This document shows positions 10,902 through 17,244 of a DNA stretch of 35,598 nucleotides, in pieces. Numbering within the stretch: position 1 is the stretch's first letter; each line of letters opens with the position of its first letter. The notes below the pieces were generated by a model. That model was not told where the DNA came from and did not search any database. It saw nothing but the letters and a program-made list of their open reading frames with translations. Source of the stretch: Flavobacteriaceae bacterium (GTDB lineage: Bacteria; Bacteroidota; Bacteroidia; Flavobacteriales; Flavobacteriaceae); NCBI GenBank assembly GCA_016649745.1, contig JAENXD010000006.1, forward strand, positions 1 through 35,598, given 5' to 3'. The position numbers and the translations under genes were made by a program.

Positions 10902-11153
10902 ATGAAAAAAGGTATACATCCAGAAAATTATAGAATGGTAGCATTTAAAGATATGTCAAATGAAGATGTATTTTTGACTCGTTCAACAGTAAACACTAGA
11001 GAAACTCTTGAAGTAGATGGTGTTGAATACCCTTTGGTAAAATTAGAAATTTCAAGAACTTCACATCCATATTACACAGGTAAAACTAAAATGGTTGATA
11101 CTGCAGGACGTATTGACAAGTTCAAAACTAAATATGCTAAATTCAGTAAATAA
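10902..11153 (+). CDS. rpmE2: 50S ribosomal protein L31, type B
   Basis: An 83-residue protein starting MKKGIHPENYRMVAFKDMSN, with SHPYYTGKTKMVDTAGRIDKF in the second half. This is the standard sequence of type B L31, the zinc-free (C-minus) paralogue: no cysteine is present. It binds the 50S central protuberance and bridges to the 30S head. It has its own promoter and a strong terminator, so it is a single-gene unit. Confidence 0.97.
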   Translation: MKKGIHPENYRMVAFKDMSNEDVFLTRSTVNTRETLEVDGVEYPLVKLEISRTSHPYYTGKTKMVDTAGRIDKFKTKYAKFSK

Positions 11154-11172
11154 TTAGCAACTTTAAAATATT

Positions 11173-11204
11173 AAAAATCCTCAACGAAAGTTGGGGATTT
11201 TTTT
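11173..11204 (+). terminator. Rho-independent terminator of rpmE2
   Basis: A stem AAAATCCTCAAC / GTTGGGGATTTT (one G-U pair) closes on a GAAA tetraloop (11186-11189), followed by a T run ending at 11204. Confidence 0.88.
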
Positions 11205-11315
11205 GTTTATAGTTAAGGTGTAAGCCAATATGATATAAGGCATTGTGTTGATATGTAATTTGTTATAATATTTGTATTGATAAAAATTACTATATTGCAT
11301 ATAAAAACTAGTAGT

Positions 11316-12425
11316 ATGCCAATATATATGGATCGTCATGATGTGTCTGAAACCGTTACGGCAGAAAACGTCGCGCAATTGCATCAAGCTGATTTAAAGA
11401 TACAAGACAAGTTTAAATGCAGAGGGCTTACGTATTGGTTTGATGAAAATAGAAAAACTGCATTTTGTTTAGTTGAAGCTCCTAATAAAGAAGCCATAAA
11501 AGAAATGCATGACCACGCTCATGGCGAGGTTCCTCATAGAATAATTGAAGTTGATGATAGCATCGTTGAATCTTTTTTAGGCAGAATTGAAGATCCTGTA
11601 AAAGCCCAAAAAACAGCATTAAATATTATTAATGACCCTGCTTTTAGAATTATAATGCTTGTAAGATTTAAGGATTTTTCGTTAAACAATTCTTTATTTG
11701 AAAAAGAAAATCAGGCATTAGTTAAAATAAACGACGATATCTTACAAATTATTTTAAAGTTAAATGGCCGCATCGTAAAACAAAATTCTAAAAGTTTTTT
11801 AATATCATTTACCTCAGTAACTAATGCTGTTTTGGGCGCTTTAGAAATTCAATCAAAATTTGAAAAAGACGTAAAGAAAAGCGTGACTTTTAATTTAAAA
11901 ATTGTGCTTGGAGCCGGGGTTCCTGTTGCGGAAAAGGAAGGGCTTTTTGAAGATACTATTGACATGGTTGAATCGATATATAAATTTATTAAAGGTCATG
12001 TTGTAATAACAAATGAAGTTAAAGACTTATATGAGAGCGAAAATTCAAATAAATCTATTGATTATAAATTTATCAATGTTTTAAAGTCTTCTGATGAAAA
12101 ATTTCTCAATAATTTAATGAGTTGTATTGAAAATAACTGGAATAAAACCGATTTAAAAGCGAATGACTTTTGCAAGCAACTAGGATATAGCAAATCGCGA
12201 TTGTATCGAAAAATGATGTTTTTAACCGGTCAATCGCCAAATGCTTTTATAAAAGAATTCAGATTAAATATGGCCTTGGAATTATTGAATAAACAAATAG
12301 ACAATATTTCTGAAATTGCGTTTAAAACAGGTTTTAATAGCCCAACTTATTTTTCAAAATGTTTTAAAGAAAAATTTGGAATTCTTCCTTCCAATTATAC
12401 AAAATTGTCAATTAACAAAGCTTAA
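11316..12425 (+). CDS. DUF4242 (nickel-binding type) / cyclase-like / AraC HTH fusion regulator
   Basis: A 369-residue protein in three parts. Residues 1-88 match DUF4242, the SCO4226-type nickel-binding fold: MPIYMDRHDV at the start, FCLVEAPNKEA, and a His cluster MHDHAHG at 64-70. Residues ~108-240 resemble a class III nucleotide cyclase core (ALEIQSKF, FNLKIVLGAGVPVAEKEGLFEDTIDMVESI, GHVVITNEVKDLY) without the catalytic metal-binding Asp pair, so it probably binds rather than cyclises. Residues ~265-365 are an AraC-type double HTH (CKQLGYSKSRLYRKM and ISEIAFKTGFNSPTYFSKCFKEKFGILPSNY). I chose the ATG at 11316 because DUF4242 begins there; 13 upstream in-frame residues look like leader. A metal- or ligand-responsive activator of the cassette downstream is an inference from position. 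Confidence 0.85.
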   Translation: MPIYMDRHDVSETVTAENVAQLHQADLKIQDKFKCRGLTYWFDENRKTAFCLVEAPNKEAIKEMHDHAHGEVPHRIIEVDDSIVESFLGRIEDPVKAQKTALNIINDPAFRIIMLVRFKDFSLNNSLFEKENQALVKINDDILQIILKLNGRIVKQNSKSFLISFTSVTNAVLGALEIQSKFEKDVKKSVTFNLKIVLGAGVPVAEKEGLFEDTIDMVESIYKFIKGHVVITNEVKDLYESENSNKSIDYKFINVLKSSDEKFLNNLMSCIENNWNKTDLKANDFCKQLGYSKSRLYRKMMFLTGQSPNAFIKEFRLNMALELLNKQIDNISEIAFKTGFNSPTYFSKCFKEKFGILPSNYTKLSINKA

Positions 12426-12573
12426 ATTAAAATCTTTTTAGAAATTCTTCAGAATAACTTTGAATCAAAATTGCGATTATTTGAATCAATTGTTAACGTA
12501 GTTGTTGTTTTATCTATGTAGTTTTGAAGTGTTTATAGGTGTTTTTCAAAAGCACGTTTAATCAATAGAATTC

Positions 12574-12592
12574 CCCGAGGCTCTGCCTCGGG
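12574..12592. repeat. Left-end hairpin of the IS200-type element
   Basis: A perfect 8-bp palindrome CCCGAGGC-TCT-GCCTCGGG with a 3-nt loop, 31 bases before the transposase start codon. It should be the subterminal hairpin recognised by TnpA. Confidence 0.85.
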
Positions 12593-12622
12593 TGTTGCGT
12601 AAAGATATGTATATTTGTTGAT

Positions 12623-13066
12623 ATGAGTGAGCATATCCACAAGAGTCATAATAAAAGTTTGCTTCTTTATCATTTTGTATGTCCGATAAAGTATAGGCGA
12701 AGTGTTTTGACCGCATCAGTTTCAAAGACTTTCAAAGAGATTTGTCTACAGATAGAACAACGATATGAGATGAGTTTTTTGGAAATAGGTATTGATGGGA
12801 ATCACGTACATTTTTTGATACAGGGTGTTCCTAATGATGCGCCTAAAAACATTATTGGAGCAGTTAAAAGTATCACGGCGAAAGAAATTTTCAGGCTTCA
12901 TCCTGAAGTAAAACAGGAGCTTTGGGGTGGAAAATTTTGGACGAGCGGCTACTATGTCAATACTGTTGGACAATATGCCAATGAGGATGTTATAAGGAAG
13001 TATTTACAGAATCAAGGAAAATCAGATTATGAAATGTTACATTCAGGTCAACTGAAATTGTTCTGA
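12623..13066 (+). CDS. tnpA: IS200/IS605 family Y1 transposase TnpA
   Basis: A 147-residue HUH single-strand transposase of full normal length. The metal-binding HUH motif is H61-V-H63 in GNHVHFLI. The catalytic tyrosine and the third ligand are Y127 and Q131 in RKYLQNQG, the same spacing as in the ISHp608 enzyme. Other family markers are LLLYHFVCPIKYRR (13-26), KSITAKEIF (82-90), LWGGKFWTSGYYVNTVG (100-116). All catalytic residues are intact, so the element may be active. Confidence 0.95.
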   Translation: MSEHIHKSHNKSLLLYHFVCPIKYRRSVLTASVSKTFKEICLQIEQRYEMSFLEIGIDGNHVHFLIQGVPNDAPKNIIGAVKSITAKEIFRLHPEVKQELWGGKFWTSGYYVNTVGQYANEDVIRKYLQNQGKSDYEMLHSGQLKLF

Positions 13067-13072
13067 TTGTGA

Positions 13073-13098
13073 TACCCCGACGGCTCTGCCTCGGGGTA
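13073..13098. repeat. Right-end hairpin of the IS200-type element
   Basis: A stem TACCCCGA-GGC / GCC-TCGGGGTA with loop TCT and a single bulged C at 13081, beginning 7 nt after the tnpA stop. It shares its core with the left-end hairpin. A bulge in the right-end stem is common in this family. Confidence 0.85.
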
Positions 13099-13224
13099 GT
13101 TCATTTTTCTTAAGGAAATTACCAACATTGGATTATTAATAATTGATATAAATGGTCATATTTAAAAGATTGAAAGTATTACAATTTATAATAACTGTTA
13201 TTGATCCAGCAACCTCAGAATAGT

Positions 13225-13361
13225 TTTTTAAGCTAACATCTTGATTTTCGTTTAGATTTTTCAATTCCAAAAATTGGAACTGTATTTCGATACCTAAATT
13301 TATGATTAAAGCTTGAAAATCCTTTAAAAATATAAAATACTAACTAAAAAAATAAACAATT
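13225..13361 (+). promoter_or_regulatory. Duplicated regulatory leader, copy A (before the cupin gene)
   Basis: This stretch reappears at 13847-13983 with long exact words in the same order: AGCTAACATCT (13231), TTTTTCAATTCCA, CCTAAATTT, TTAAAG, TGAAAATC and TACTAACTAAAAAA (13338-13351, 10 nt before the ATG). The central part holds the dyad TTCCA-AAAAT-TGGAA at 13265-13279. It is non-coding and should contain the promoter and operator of the cupin gene, though no clear TTTG / TAnnTTTG pair is present. That would fit an activator-dependent promoter. Confidence 0.75.
13265..13279. promoter_or_regulatory. Operator-like dyad TTCCA-N5-TGGAA in copy A
   Basis: A perfect inverted repeat TTCCAA-AAA-TTGGAA, 82 nt before the cupin start. 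The matching place in copy B keeps both half-sites with a 4-nt centre. Confidence 0.6.
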
Positions 13362-13748
13362 ATGAAAATTTCAAAAAACGACATTGAAGTCAAAATGGAG
13401 ATTCCTGGAGCTGTTATCCGTCAGAAAACAGATTTTGGAGACGCGACCGGATTAGGTAAAATTAGCGGAGAGTATTTTAGTCTCTCTGCGGGAGTGGATA
13501 CAACACCTTTGTTTATTGGGCTTGAAGGAAATTTGTGTCAGTGCCCTCATTGGGGATATCTTTTGAGTGGACAAATTACTACTACAGATGCTAATGGCAT
13601 CGAAGAAATTGTAAACGAAAAAGATCTGTTTTATTGGCCCGCAGGGCACAATGTAAAAGTCAATGCAGATGCGGAGATTGTCATGTTTAGTCCTCAGCAT
13701 GAGCACACACATGTAATCAATCATATGATTGAGATGACTAAAGGTTAA
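13362..13748 (+). CDS. Small cupin-fold protein, function unknown
   Basis: A 128-residue cytoplasmic protein with no signal peptide. A cupin core is visible: CPHWGYLLSGQI (61-72; first motif with one His, H63, instead of HxH) and EKDLFYWPAGHNV (86-98; second motif with P93, G95, H96). The C-terminus is His-rich (PQHEHTHVINH, 111-121). This is a single-domain cupin that may bind a metal or a small ligand. It opens the cassette with the flavin oxidase and has its own leader (copy A). Which reaction it serves cannot be read from the sequence. Confidence 0.72.
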   Translation: MKISKNDIEVKMEIPGAVIRQKTDFGDATGLGKISGEYFSLSAGVDTTPLFIGLEGNLCQCPHWGYLLSGQITTTDANGIEEIVNEKDLFYWPAGHNVKVNADAEIVMFSPQHEHTHVINHMIEMTKG

Positions 13749-13846
13749 AATCGCTACCAAAAATTTATAAAAAGGAGTCTTCTCAATTGGAAAAAATTGT
13801 ACAAGATGAAAAAATTGGTTAGAAGTACAATTTAGTTCATCTTATG

Positions 13847-13983
13847 ATTTTTTAGCTAACATCTAGAATCTTAATTTAAATTTTTCAATTCCAGACATGG
13901 AAATATATGCGATGCCTAAATTTTAGAGTTAAAGTCTGAAAATCTTATAAAATAAAAAATTACTAACTAAAAAATCAAAGATT
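13847..13983 (+). promoter_or_regulatory. Duplicated regulatory leader, copy B (before the oxidase gene)
   Basis: The second copy of the leader at 13225-13361, with matching words in the same order and nearly the same spacing: AGCTAACATCT at 13854-13864, TTTTTCAATTCCA, CCTAAATTT, TTAAAG, TGAAAATC, and TACTAACTAAAAAA at 13961-13974 (9 nt before the ATG). Copies differ by substitutions and single-base indels, so the duplication is old and kept by selection or gene conversion. Confidence 0.75.
13889..13902. promoter_or_regulatory. Operator-like dyad TTCCA-N4-TGGAA in copy B
   Basis: TTCCA-GACA-TGGAA lies at the position matching 13265-13279. The half-sites are conserved while the centre differs in sequence and length. 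Confidence 0.55.
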
Positions 13984-15399
13984 ATGTCAAATTTAATGAA
14001 AAACATAAATACTTCTGTTTTGGAAGAACTTGCTTCTAAATTAAGAGGAAGAATAGTTATGCCCACAGACCCTGACTATAATGAAACACGAAAAGTGTAC
14101 AATGGAATGATTGATAAACATCCTGGGATGTTTGTAATGTGTGTTGATGTTGCAGATGTTATTGCATCCGTAAATTTTGGCAGAGAAAATAATTTATTGG
14201 TTGCTGTTAGAGGCGGTGGACACAATGGCGGCGGACTGGGAATCTGTAATGATGGATTGGTAATTGATTTATCGGGCATTAAATTTATTCGTGTTGATAC
14301 TTCTAATAACACTGTTAGCGTAGGAGGAGGAAATATTTGGGGAGAAGTTGACCATGCGACACATCCTTTTGGATTGGCAGTTCCTGCTGGAATAATTTCA
14401 ACAACAGGCGTAGGTGGATTAACATTGGGTGGTGGCGTTGGGCATTTATCGCGTAAATACGGATTGACAATAGATAATTTATTGGAAGCTGATATGGTTT
14501 TGGCTGATGGTAGTTTTGTAACTGTAAATGCTAAGCAGAACTCAGATTTATTCTGGGCTATTCGCGGTGGTGGTGGAAACTTCGGAATTGTAACCTCATT
14601 TAAATTTCAAGCACATCAAGTAAAAACTGTTTTTGGGGGCCCAACTTTATGGCCTATCGAAAAAACAGCAGAAATTATGGAATGGTATCATAAGTTTTTA
14701 AATAATGCTCCAGATGAATTAAATGGTTTTATTGCGACTATGGTTATTCCGGGAGCGCCATTTCCGGAACATCTGCACAACAAACATTTCTGCGGAATTG
14801 TGTGGTGTTATGTGGGAGGTTTAGATAAAGCAGCTGAAATATTCAAACCAATATTAGCTATGAAGCCTTTATTTGAACATGTTGGCGAAATGCCGTACCC
14901 ATCTGTACAAACATTATTTGACGGATTGTTTCCTCCAGGTTTACAATGGTATTGGAGAGCCGACTTTTTTAATGAATTAGGTGCTGAAGTTAGGGCGCAA
15001 CATTTAAAATTTGGTTCAAAAATCCCTACGCCTCTTTCTCAAATGCATTTATATCCAATTAGTGGCGCTGCCAGCAGAGTTGCCAAGGATGAGACCCCAT
15101 GGGCTTACCGTGATGCCAAATATGCCGGAGTAATTGTTGGTGTTTCTCCAAATCCTAAAGATTCAGATAAAATTACAAAGTGGTGTAAAGATTATTGGGA
15201 AGCATTGCACCCTTATTCTTCCGGAGGCGCGTATTCAAATTTTATGATGGATGAGGGGCAAGAACGCGTAAAAGCGAGTTACAGGCACAATTATGAGCGT
15301 TTAACAAAAATTAAAATAAAATATGACCCTGCTAATTTCTTTAGCGTAAATCAGAATATTAAACCTAAAATAAATACTTATGAAACTACTACCTATTAA
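13984..15399 (+). CDS. FAD-linked oxidase with BBE domain (covalent flavin type)
   Basis: A 471-residue flavoprotein of the PCMH/VAO class. RGGGHNGGG (76-84) carries H80, the site of 8-alpha-histidyl FAD linkage in this family. The second FAD-binding loop reads GIISTTGVGGLTLGGGVGHLSRKYGL; the Cys that makes a second flavin bond in berberine-bridge enzymes is absent, so the link should be mono-covalent. The C-terminus YDPANFFSVNQNI (about 447-459) is the BBE domain. Relatives include 6-hydroxy-D-nicotine oxidase and sugar/alcohol oxidases; the substrate is unknown. No signal peptide is seen. It overlaps the next gene by 20 nt and shares its leader type with the cupin gene before it. Confidence 0.93.
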   Translation: MSNLMKNINTSVLEELASKLRGRIVMPTDPDYNETRKVYNGMIDKHPGMFVMCVDVADVIASVNFGRENNLLVAVRGGGHNGGGLGICNDGLVIDLSGIKFIRVDTSNNTVSVGGGNIWGEVDHATHPFGLAVPAGIISTTGVGGLTLGGGVGHLSRKYGLTIDNLLEADMVLADGSFVTVNAKQNSDLFWAIRGGGGNFGIVTSFKFQAHQVKTVFGGPTLWPIEKTAEIMEWYHKFLNNAPDELNGFIATMVIPGAPFPEHLHNKHFCGIVWCYVGGLDKAAEIFKPILAMKPLFEHVGEMPYPSVQTLFDGLFPPGLQWYWRADFFNELGAEVRAQHLKFGSKIPTPLSQMHLYPISGAASRVAKDETPWAYRDAKYAGVIVGVSPNPKDSDKITKWCKDYWEALHPYSSGGAYSNFMMDEGQERVKASYRHNYERLTKIKIKYDPANFFSVNQNIKPKINTYETTTY

Positions 15400-15862
15400 A
15401 TCAAATTTTAAAATGATTTTATTCATTTCAATGTTTTTATTAACGTTAACTATTTTTGCTCAGCAAAATATGAGAACGGGTAATGAGATGTCTGTTTTAT
15501 TTACAGATAAAGATGCAGATTTACAATGGGAACCTTGTCCGCCATTTATGCCAGAAGGTTGTTCTATTGCTGTATTACATGGAGATCCTGTAAAAAGAAA
15601 TTTGGATGTTTTTTTTAAAGTCCCAGCGAACTCAGATATTCCAAATCATTGGCATCATTCCGCAGAACGTATGATTTTAATTTCAGGTGAATTGCATGTG
15701 ACTTATAAAGGCGAAAACACCCAAATTATGAAAGCAGGATCCTATGCTTATGGTCCATCAACTAAACCTCATATTGCCAAATGTGTAAATTCAGAACCTT
15801 GTGTATTATTTATAGCGTTTGAAGAGCCATTAGATGCGTTTCCTTTAATTATAAAAGAGTAA
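15380..15862 (+). CDS. Exported cupin domain protein
   Basis: A 160-residue protein with an N-terminal signal peptide (hydrophobic 12-26, likely cut after IFA, residue 27) and one cupin domain. Motif 1 is H90-W-H92 and E96 (HWHHSAERMILISG). Motif 2 is GSYAYGPSTKPH with H131. A full 3-His/Glu metal site is therefore present, unlike the cytoplasmic cupin at 13362. Four Cys at 53, 61, 135 and 141 could form disulfides in the periplasm. The start at 15380 overlaps the oxidase gene by 20 nt; the ATG of residue 12 (15413) would avoid the overlap and still give a signal peptide. Coupling to the oxidase suggests a joint pathway. Confidence 0.85.
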   Translation: MKLLPIKSNFKMILFISMFLLTLTIFAQQNMRTGNEMSVLFTDKDADLQWEPCPPFMPEGCSIAVLHGDPVKRNLDVFFKVPANSDIPNHWHHSAERMILISGELHVTYKGENTQIMKAGSYAYGPSTKPHIAKCVNSEPCVLFIAFEEPLDAFPLIIKE

Positions 15863-15908
15863 AACACATGTGTTTTTAGATTTAAAATAATCAAATTTAT
15901 TTACAAAA

Positions 15909-15940
15909 AAAAACCATCACTTTTAATGATGGTTTTTTTT
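15909..15940. terminator. Bidirectional terminator between the cupin cassette and pdhC
   Basis: A stem AAAAAACCATCA / TGATGGTTTTTT with A and T tracts on the two sides lies between convergent genes. It fits termination in both directions. Confidence 0.88.
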
Positions 15941-15960
15941 GTAAATTATAAATAACTATG

Positions 15961-17244
15961 TTAAGCCAGCATTGTTACAGGATTTTCAATAAATTGTTTT
16001 AATGTTTGTAAAAAAGCTGAACCAGTAGCGCCGTCAACTGTTCTGTGATCGCAGGCCAAAGTAACTTTCATGGTGTTTCCAATCACAATTTCACCATTTT
16101 TAACAACAGGTTTTTGAATAATTGCGCCTACTGATAAAATTGCTGAGTTTGGCTGATTGATAATAGAAGTAAATTCTGAAATTCCAAACATTCCAAGGTT
16201 AGATACTGTAAAAGTACTTCCTTCCATTTCTGCAGGCGTTAATTTTTTAGATTTGGCTCTTGTTGCCATATCCTTAATTTCTGCTCCAATTTGAGTCATG
16301 CTTTTTTGATCTGTAAAACGAGTTACCGGCACAACCAATCCGTCTTCAACAGCAACAGCAACGCCAATATGCACGTGGTGGTTTATGCGCGTTCTGTCGT
16401 CAAACCATTGCGAATTTACTTTTGGATGTTTTTTCAATGCCATGGCGCTTGCCTTAACCACCATATCATTAAAAGATACTTTGGTGTCAGGTAGTTCATT
16501 AATGAGTCTGCGTGATTCAATGGCGTTGTCCATGTTAATCTCCAGCATTAAATAATAATGGGGAGCAGTAAATTTAGATTCCGCCAACCTGCGCGCAATG
16601 GTTTTGCGCATTTGAGAATTAGGAGTTTCTTCAAAGCTTTCTTTTCCAGAAACAATCGGTACAGAAACACTAGAAACAGCAGAAGCTGCTGTCGGCACAT
16701 AATTTTCAACATCAGATTTTACAATCCTTCCGCCTTCCCCGGTTCCGGAAATGGTGGTCAGATTTATTCCTTTTTCTTCCGCTATTTTTTTTGCCAAAGG
16801 AGATGCGATAACCCTGTCTGATGTATTTGTAGGAACTGGAGTTTGAGCCGTTTCGGCAACTTTTTCAGGAGTTTTTACAGTTTCAGTAACTTTTTCAGGT
16901 TCAGCAATCTCTGCTGTTTTCTCTGGAGCTTTTACAGTTTCAGGTGCTTTGACACTTGGTGCAGAAGACGCCTTAAATTCTTTTATGATAGCATCAATAT
17001 CTTCACCTTCTTCGCCAATAATAGCCAATAATGAATCTACAGGAGCACTTTCACCATCTTTTAAACCAATGTATAAAAGTGTGCCTTCATTAAAAGATTC
17101 AAATTCCATTGTTGCTTTATCGGTTTCAATTTCGGCTAAAATATCGCCTTCTGAAATTTTATCGCCAACTTTTTTTAACCACTGTGCTACAACTCCTTCA
17201 GTCATTGTGTCACTTAAATGTGGCATTGTTATAATTTCTGCCAT
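15961..17244 (-). CDS. pdhC: Pyruvate dehydrogenase complex E2, dihydrolipoamide acetyltransferase
   Basis: A 427-residue E2 subunit that transfers the acetyl group from lipoamide to CoA and forms the core of the complex. A single lipoyl domain lies at 1-78, with the lipoylated K43 in ETDKATMEFES. A Pro/Ala/Glu/Lys-rich linker follows (about 95-140, repeats such as VKAPEK and VKTPEK). The peripheral-subunit-binding domain is near 147-183 (ASPLAKKIAEEKGI ... GGRIVKSDV). The catalytic domain ends with H400 and D404 in DHRTVDG. Many relatives carry two lipoyl domains, so this is the short form. The start codon immediately follows the pdhA stop, giving a tight pdhA-pdhC operon. Confidence 0.95.
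   Translation of the reverse strand: MAEIITMPHLSDTMTEGVVAQWLKKVGDKISEGDILAEIETDKATMEFESFNEGTLLYIGLKDGESAPVDSLLAIIGEEGEDIDAIIKEFKASSAPSVKAPETVKAPEKTAEIAEPEKVTETVKTPEKVAETAQTPVPTNTSDRVIASPLAKKIAEEKGINLTTISGTGEGGRIVKSDVENYVPTAASAVSSVSVPIVSGKESFEETPNSQMRKTIARRLAESKFTAPHYYLMLEINMDNAIESRRLINELPDTKVSFNDMVVKASAMALKKHPKVNSQWFDDRTRINHHVHIGVAVAVEDGLVVPVTRFTDQKSMTQIGAEIKDMATRAKSKKLTPAEMEGSTFTVSNLGMFGISEFTSIINQPNSAILSVGAIIQKPVVKNGEIVIGNTMKVTLACDHRTVDGATGSAFLQTLKQFIENPVTMLA

Follow-up and report, generated by a model that had tools for sequence, protein, structure and literature searches.

Two unrelated genes in a Flavobacteriaceae genome, one for a small cupin (cupA) and one for a flavin oxidase, are preceded by the same leader of about 137 nt, and each copy carries an inverted repeat. 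Is this leader the operator through which an AraC-type protein encoded upstream co-regulates the two genes, as an initial annotation proposed, and how did both genes come to carry it? We addressed these questions in the window, the whole 35,598-nt stretch of DNA under analysis, which belongs to a 3.1-Mb assembly in 283 contigs (78% complete, 5% contaminated) that we take as Lutibacter-like. The reading we favor, with a probability of roughly two in three, is that the block is the leader of the oxidase gene and that an older copy of it came to stand before cupA by recombination. The switch would instead be a direct repeat and a promoter box further upstream, from which one transcript would run through cupA, the oxidase gene and a second cupin gene, cupB (Table 1).

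Table 1. Features of the regulator–oxidase cassette, in window coordinates
Feature	Position	Strand	Evidence or remark
AraC-type regulator	11316–12425	+	Pfam, PDB profile search, structure model, Foldseek
Predicted regulator operator	12459–12499	+	direct repeat TTTGAATC.., 21-bp period
Predicted −7 box TAGTTTTG	12519–12526	+	offset 19 from the profile end; start predicted near 12531, using the start distance given in PMC6847099
IS200/IS605-type element	12557–13106 (ends approximate)	+	TnpA at 12623–13066; PF01797, NF033573
Possible 3' stub of SCO4226-like lipoprotein gene	13198–13223	+	TTATTGATCC..TCAGAATAG; reads IDPATSE + stop
Leader copy 1	13225–13361	+	before cupA; dyad TTCCA-N5-TGGAA, exact, at 13265–13279; not the cupA leader type of G008 and G029
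A-rich cupA start region	13338–13361	+	putative recombination junction within a shared TAACTAAAAA stretch
cupA	13362–13748	+	small cupin-fold protein; model pLDDT 90.1; Foldseek matches are cupins
Leader copy 2	13848–13983	+	before oxidase gene; dyad TTCCA-N4-TGGAA, exact, at 13889–13902; orthologous leaders in G008, G029, G018 and G006
FAD-linked (berberine-bridge-like) oxidase gene	13984–15399	+	PF01565, PF08031
cupB, exported-looking cupin	15380–15862	+	PF07883, ORF positions

The duplication itself is real. When copy 1 was searched by BLAST against the window's own genome, the best match was copy 2 (127 nt, 80% identical, E 8.4e-23) and the next a 38-nt piece (E 0.004); no third copy was found in this 3.1-Mb, 78% complete assembly. 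An alignment of six leaders places 5 gap columns between the two copies, which agree in 77% of the 127 columns free of gaps. Several observations of the initial annotation are borne out: homology between the leaders extends as far as the start codons, each leader contains an exact dyad, and the shared words keep their order and spacing in general, apart from the small indels behind the gap columns. We rejected the idea that copy 1 is a recent copy of copy 2, since its identity to copy 2 (0.77) is about equal to its identity to the leaders of three other genomes, G008, G029 and G018 (0.75–0.76).

In our reading, the block serves the FAD oxidase gene as its untranslated leader across a group of Lutibacter-like genomes. 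BLAST found leader matches in six of 38 genus genomes, one of which was left out of the leader count: in G027 just the 25-nt end at the start region matches, and the ORF that follows it is unrelated. A sequence-only model built from six leaders and searched in the same 38 genomes gave matches in eight at E up to 0.001. The six strong ones are its own training copies, two in the window's own genome (G000) and one each in G029, G008, G018 and G006, and four weak ones (E ~1e-4; G032, G018, G015 and G034) fall within a long ORF that we take to encode a RecQ helicase. In all four other genomes with the leader it stands before the oxidase gene, and the gene 5' of it varies: cupA in G008 and G029, a SCO4226-like gene in G018 and the regulator gene in G006, which keeps the leader although no gene separates its regulator from its oxidase. 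In G008 and G029, cupA has a different upstream region.

That the block could be a dispersed repeat unrelated to these genes is a reading with practically no chance of being right, and nothing turned up in its favor. A widely dispersed repeat was looked for in the own, genus and family genomes and not found: there are two copies in the own genome, and within the genus the leader is confined to the oxidase/regulator cassette. In a set of 397 family genomes, which included three from the genus, with two candidates scored per genome, BLAST recovered only the window's genome and G006, leaving none at E 1e-5 in the 394 family genomes outside the genus.

The AraC-type protein is probably the right candidate for a dedicated regulator. 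Of the best 80 oxidase loci, out of at least 523 confirmed relatives, 63 have such a gene no more than 2 kb 5' of the oxidase gene and co-directional with it; among these 63 are more distant paralogues (31–40% identity) and two partial matches (L093, L094). Pfam and PDB profile searches divide the protein into a SCO4226-like domain at residues 1–79 (PF14026, PDB 4oi3), a class III cyclase-like domain at about 120–242 and a C-terminal AraC helix-turn-helix (HTH) at about 257–363 (PF12833, E 3e-19; PF00165, E 2e-11). The structure model (mean pLDDT 81.8) led Foldseek to cyclases, SCO4226 and AraC HTH domains. The N-terminal domain resembles the nickel-binding protein SCO4226 (PMC4186839), with the difference that in the regulator it is joined to the cyclase-like and AraC HTH domains. 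The middle domain matches class III nucleotidyl cyclases (Ma1120, photoactivated cyclases) by profile and model; unlike them it shows no invariant aspartate across 21 aligned regulators, read by eye, so that its catalysis looks lost. In outline the protein resembles a sensor-plus-cyclase protein whose output has turned to DNA binding. Our literature search found no description of the regulator, its cassette or the operator-like element described below, and no paper joining DUF4242 with AraC; among the matches listed for Lutibacter with AraC, none was about the cassette, judged by title.

Three loci (L129, L063 and G003:C34:144254-146444) carry a tandem pair of regulator genes, about 55% and 32–34% identical to the window's. 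Metagenome-assembled genomes titled Calditrichaceae, Ignavibacteriae and Melioribacteraceae (L096, L104 and L070) contain a 31–34% regulator paralogue, an operator-like repeat and an oxidase gene.

A direct repeat of 21-bp period beyond the regulator gene, rather than the leader, is most likely the regulator's switch, as judged from comparison of related loci. We built a 38-nt operator profile from regions past regulator stop codons, holding out the window; it scored 33.8 bits at 12462–12499, with 2.4 bits at the window's next-best place. A second profile, trained on 46 loci judged not Lutibacter-like (41 used), gave the same place 32.2 bits and the next −1.5, and reached at least 20.8 bits in 16 of 17 held-out Lutibacter-like loci, the exception being L085 at −9.2. 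When full gaps were searched, an operator-like repeat of at least 15 bits appeared in 59 of the 63 regulator loci (drawn from the best 80 of at least 523), and was missing at that threshold in L085, L095, L106 and L133; these loci are related by descent, so the counts are not independent events. At oxidase loci that have no regulator the element was absent, with all 15 scorable loci at −5.9 bits or below (two others were too short). Presence with the regulator and absence at regulator-less oxidase loci tie the element to the regulator rather than to the oxidase.

A promoter box accompanies the repeat at a fixed distance. An exact TAnnTTTG box lies within 70 nt after the repeat in 31 of the 59 loci, at offset 19 in 28 and offset 20 in three, against a base-shuffle mean of 3.9 of 59; the same 70 nt contain no exact box in the other 28. 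A model of repeat and box together (R1; 47 sites with box, the window excluded and near relatives included, a limited number of candidates scored) matched in at least 24 of 38 genus genomes at E up to 0.01. At least 15 have a match at E up to 1.8e-5, each no more than about 1.2 kb downstream of a regulator gene, and the window's own genome has a single match, at 12460–12528 (E 4.6e-10). The weaker matches (E 1.2e-4 and above), four of which were inspected, are taken as chance, except the second in G012, which lies beside its regulator. Sixteen genus genomes have a full-length regulator match, and the sole one without a strong R1 match is G013, whose protein is a 34% paralogue.

The predicted switch resembles known systems in part. 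Sigma-A promoters of Bacteroidota contain TTTG or TAnnTTTG elements (PMC6847099, PMC9723704), and the window has a TAnnTTTG box too, placed at the distance from the repeat that recurs in other loci. The third position of TAGTTTTG is a G, a base hardly ever found there in Flavobacterium johnsoniae promoters (PMC6847099). AraC motifs of 21-bp periodicity have been described for several groups including Bacteroides, and the Bacteroides RhaR motifs share with the cassette an AraC HTH and a 21-bp-period repeat adjoining the promoter (PMC3870299); in that comparison the window differs in repeat sequence, target genes and its SCO4226-like and cyclase-like sensor, and its binding is predicted. In the mechanism we favor, the regulator would bind the repeat beside RNA polymerase at the box, and activation, as its family suggests, would yield one transcript through the three genes. 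A widespread regulator with an unusual sensor part thereby gains a sharply testable predicted operator.

The dyad does not behave as an operator across genomes. The initial annotation supposed that its half-sites are kept as in an operator, yet both are intact in none of the four orthologous leaders: the right half survives in G008 and G018, the left half in G029. Compared pairwise, the five oxidase leaders have a mean identity of 0.68 over their whole length; the left half falls below this (0.54) and the right half lies above it (0.78), while the best-conserved parts are a CCTAAA..GAAAA block (0.83) and TACTAACTAAAAA (0.91). The dyad pattern occurs at 17 sites in the own genome, compared with seven for a reversed control pattern. 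Fifteen of the 17 have a locus: besides the two leaders, 11 fall within ORFs of 150 aa or longer, another within an ORF of 136 aa, and the last lies clear of such ORFs. Both operator profiles score near background in the two leaders, where the maxima are −17.7 and −20.0 bits for the profile built without the window and −15.4 and −17.6 bits for the one trained on loci judged not Lutibacter-like. We also considered the leader as a decayed operator and rejected this, as half-site matches in the leaders were no better than in shuffles.

It is thus very improbable that the AraC-type protein binds the dyad leaders and switches cupA and the oxidase separately. The leader does lie in the regulator's cassette in all five genomes that have it, both dyads are exact in the own genome and the right half is fairly conserved. 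Set against this are the drift of the half-sites, with the left half below the leader average, and an operator-like repeat that lies elsewhere; moreover, of the 16 genus genomes that match the regulator over its full length, 11 have no leader, and cupA in G008 and G029 lacks it though regulator and operator-like repeat are present. The operator reading of the initial annotation was therefore most likely wrong in place and kind. Comparison with relatives shifted the predicted switch upstream, about 0.8 kb from copy 1 and 1.4 kb from copy 2, a caution against taking a tidy palindrome seen in a single genome for an operator.

Co-regulation is plausible through the upstream promoter rather than through the leaders. 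In two related loci (L103 and L114) the oxidase ATG follows the last cupA codon by 7 nt, a spacing that fits one operon. What stands of the proposed co-regulation by a dedicated factor is the AraC-type protein as its likely agent, in a one-operon sense; its route through duplicated leaders is not supported. CupA itself matches no Pfam family at E 0.001, giving only a sub-threshold Cupin_3 match. The cupB frame opens within the end of the oxidase gene, with a 20-nt overlap (15380–15399). Next to the regulator and oxidase genes, or between them, genes for a truncated haemoglobin and a SCO4226-like lipoprotein are variably present (L059:5013-5854; L056, L057, L058, L061 and others).

In the window, cupA carries another gene's upstream region instead of its usual one, as judged from the three of 38 genus genomes that have cupA. 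The cupA upstream regions of G008 and G029 align with each other at a score of 85 (shuffle maximum 32). That of the window scores 31 and 29 against them (shuffle maxima 33 and 38) and 66 to 124 against all five oxidase leaders (shuffle maxima 37 to 43). Some relation between the two leader types is possible, going by the scores of the G008 cupA upstream region against the oxidase leaders of G018 (39, shuffle maximum 35) and G006 (37, shuffle maximum 33). In the favored reading, the older copy of the oxidase leader would have replaced a cupA leader of the G008/G029 type.

Recombination within a shared A-rich stretch probably gave cupA its leader. By eye, the cupA start changes from the oxidase-type TACTAACTAAAAA on the left to AATAAACAATTATG, as in the G008 cupA, on the right; the right side also resembles the oxidase leader of G006. 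Immediately beside copy 1 there may be a stub of a SCO4226-like gene, a marginal case: its reading frame fits and its position corresponds to that of the 3' end of the G018 gene at L059 (IDPKTAE + stop), and its alignment beats the shuffle maximum in two of six comparisons, narrowly. The region 13107–13231 gave no score above the shuffle maximum against the regulator–cupA gaps of G029 and G008, the globin–oxidase region of G018 or the gap before copy 2. The cupA case recalls promoter capture, whether through recombination or through tandem duplication (PMC11111574): the upstream region of a neighbor precedes the gene, and a short shared sequence lies at the putative junction. It differs in being old and seen by comparison alone. 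It also offers an example of a gene that has taken over its neighbor's leader.

Both leader copies look constrained, and for this reason they probably do something. Identity of leaders between genomes (0.71–0.84) exceeded that at fourfold sites of the oxidase gene (0.33–0.61) in 10 of 10 pairs, bearing in mind that high A+T raises chance identity in leader comparisons. This bears on the alternative that the copy before cupA is a functionless, chance leftover of rearrangement. Its occurrence in a single genome, next to a possible gene stub and an IS element, would suit a leftover, but copy 1 is about as similar to the oxidase leaders (0.69–0.77) as these are to each other, well above the fourfold-site range, and it also contains the cupA start region; we consider a leftover distinctly improbable.

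The leaders most likely supply a 5' UTR with the start region, and perhaps a second, internal promoter. Their A-rich start region agrees with what PMC6847099 reports for F. johnsoniae. We tried TACTAACTAAAAA as a very common start signal and rejected it: there are only three exact occurrences in the own genome, two of them the leaders, and no ORF of at least 80 aa starts within 250 nt downstream of the third.

In a different account the leaders carry a second promoter that answers to another factor, whose site would be the dyad region or the better-conserved CCTAAA..GAAAA block. Leader constraint, the conservation of that block and the retention of the leader in G006, which has no gene between regulator and oxidase, all speak for it. 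On the other side, the exact TAnnTTTG box is found in one of six leaders, and one-mismatch words in five of six; the dyad halves drift, and no other candidate factor was identified. A sigma-70 promoter scan, whose model is not apt for the phylum, found seven promoters against 8.2 in shuffles. On balance we regard this account as unlikely. Highly unlikely is a structured RNA element, such as an attenuator or a riboswitch-like leader: the length and the position before start codons would fit, and RNAalifold drew two short helices with double changes in three of 15 pairs, but the consensus energy was only −1.16 kcal/mol with an unfavorable covariation term of +1.59, and Rfam gave no match at gathering level in 11000–16000.

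An insertion may add to the importance of copy 1. An IS200/IS605-type element, whose TnpA matches PF01797 at 118.8 bits and NF033573 at 127.8 bits (cut-off 55), sits between the predicted promoter and cupA. On the + strand, its right end is predicted to form terminator-like hairpins. The element may weaken read-through into cupA, in which case the copied leader would gain weight. A doubtful but possible extension is that the leader holds a second promoter independent of the AraC-type protein and that, with the IS element in between, the leader copy moved cupA away from the regulator's control to the oxidase's second control. If true, this would be natural rewiring by leader exchange, while a single dedicated operator stays with the regulator throughout Bacteroidota and related phyla. 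Homology of the window to the G029 gap ends near 12546. We set the ends of the element from partial copies in the own genome, where the tip of one contig (C142) carries a sequence identical to the element's right end and another contig (C69) contains a 73% relative.
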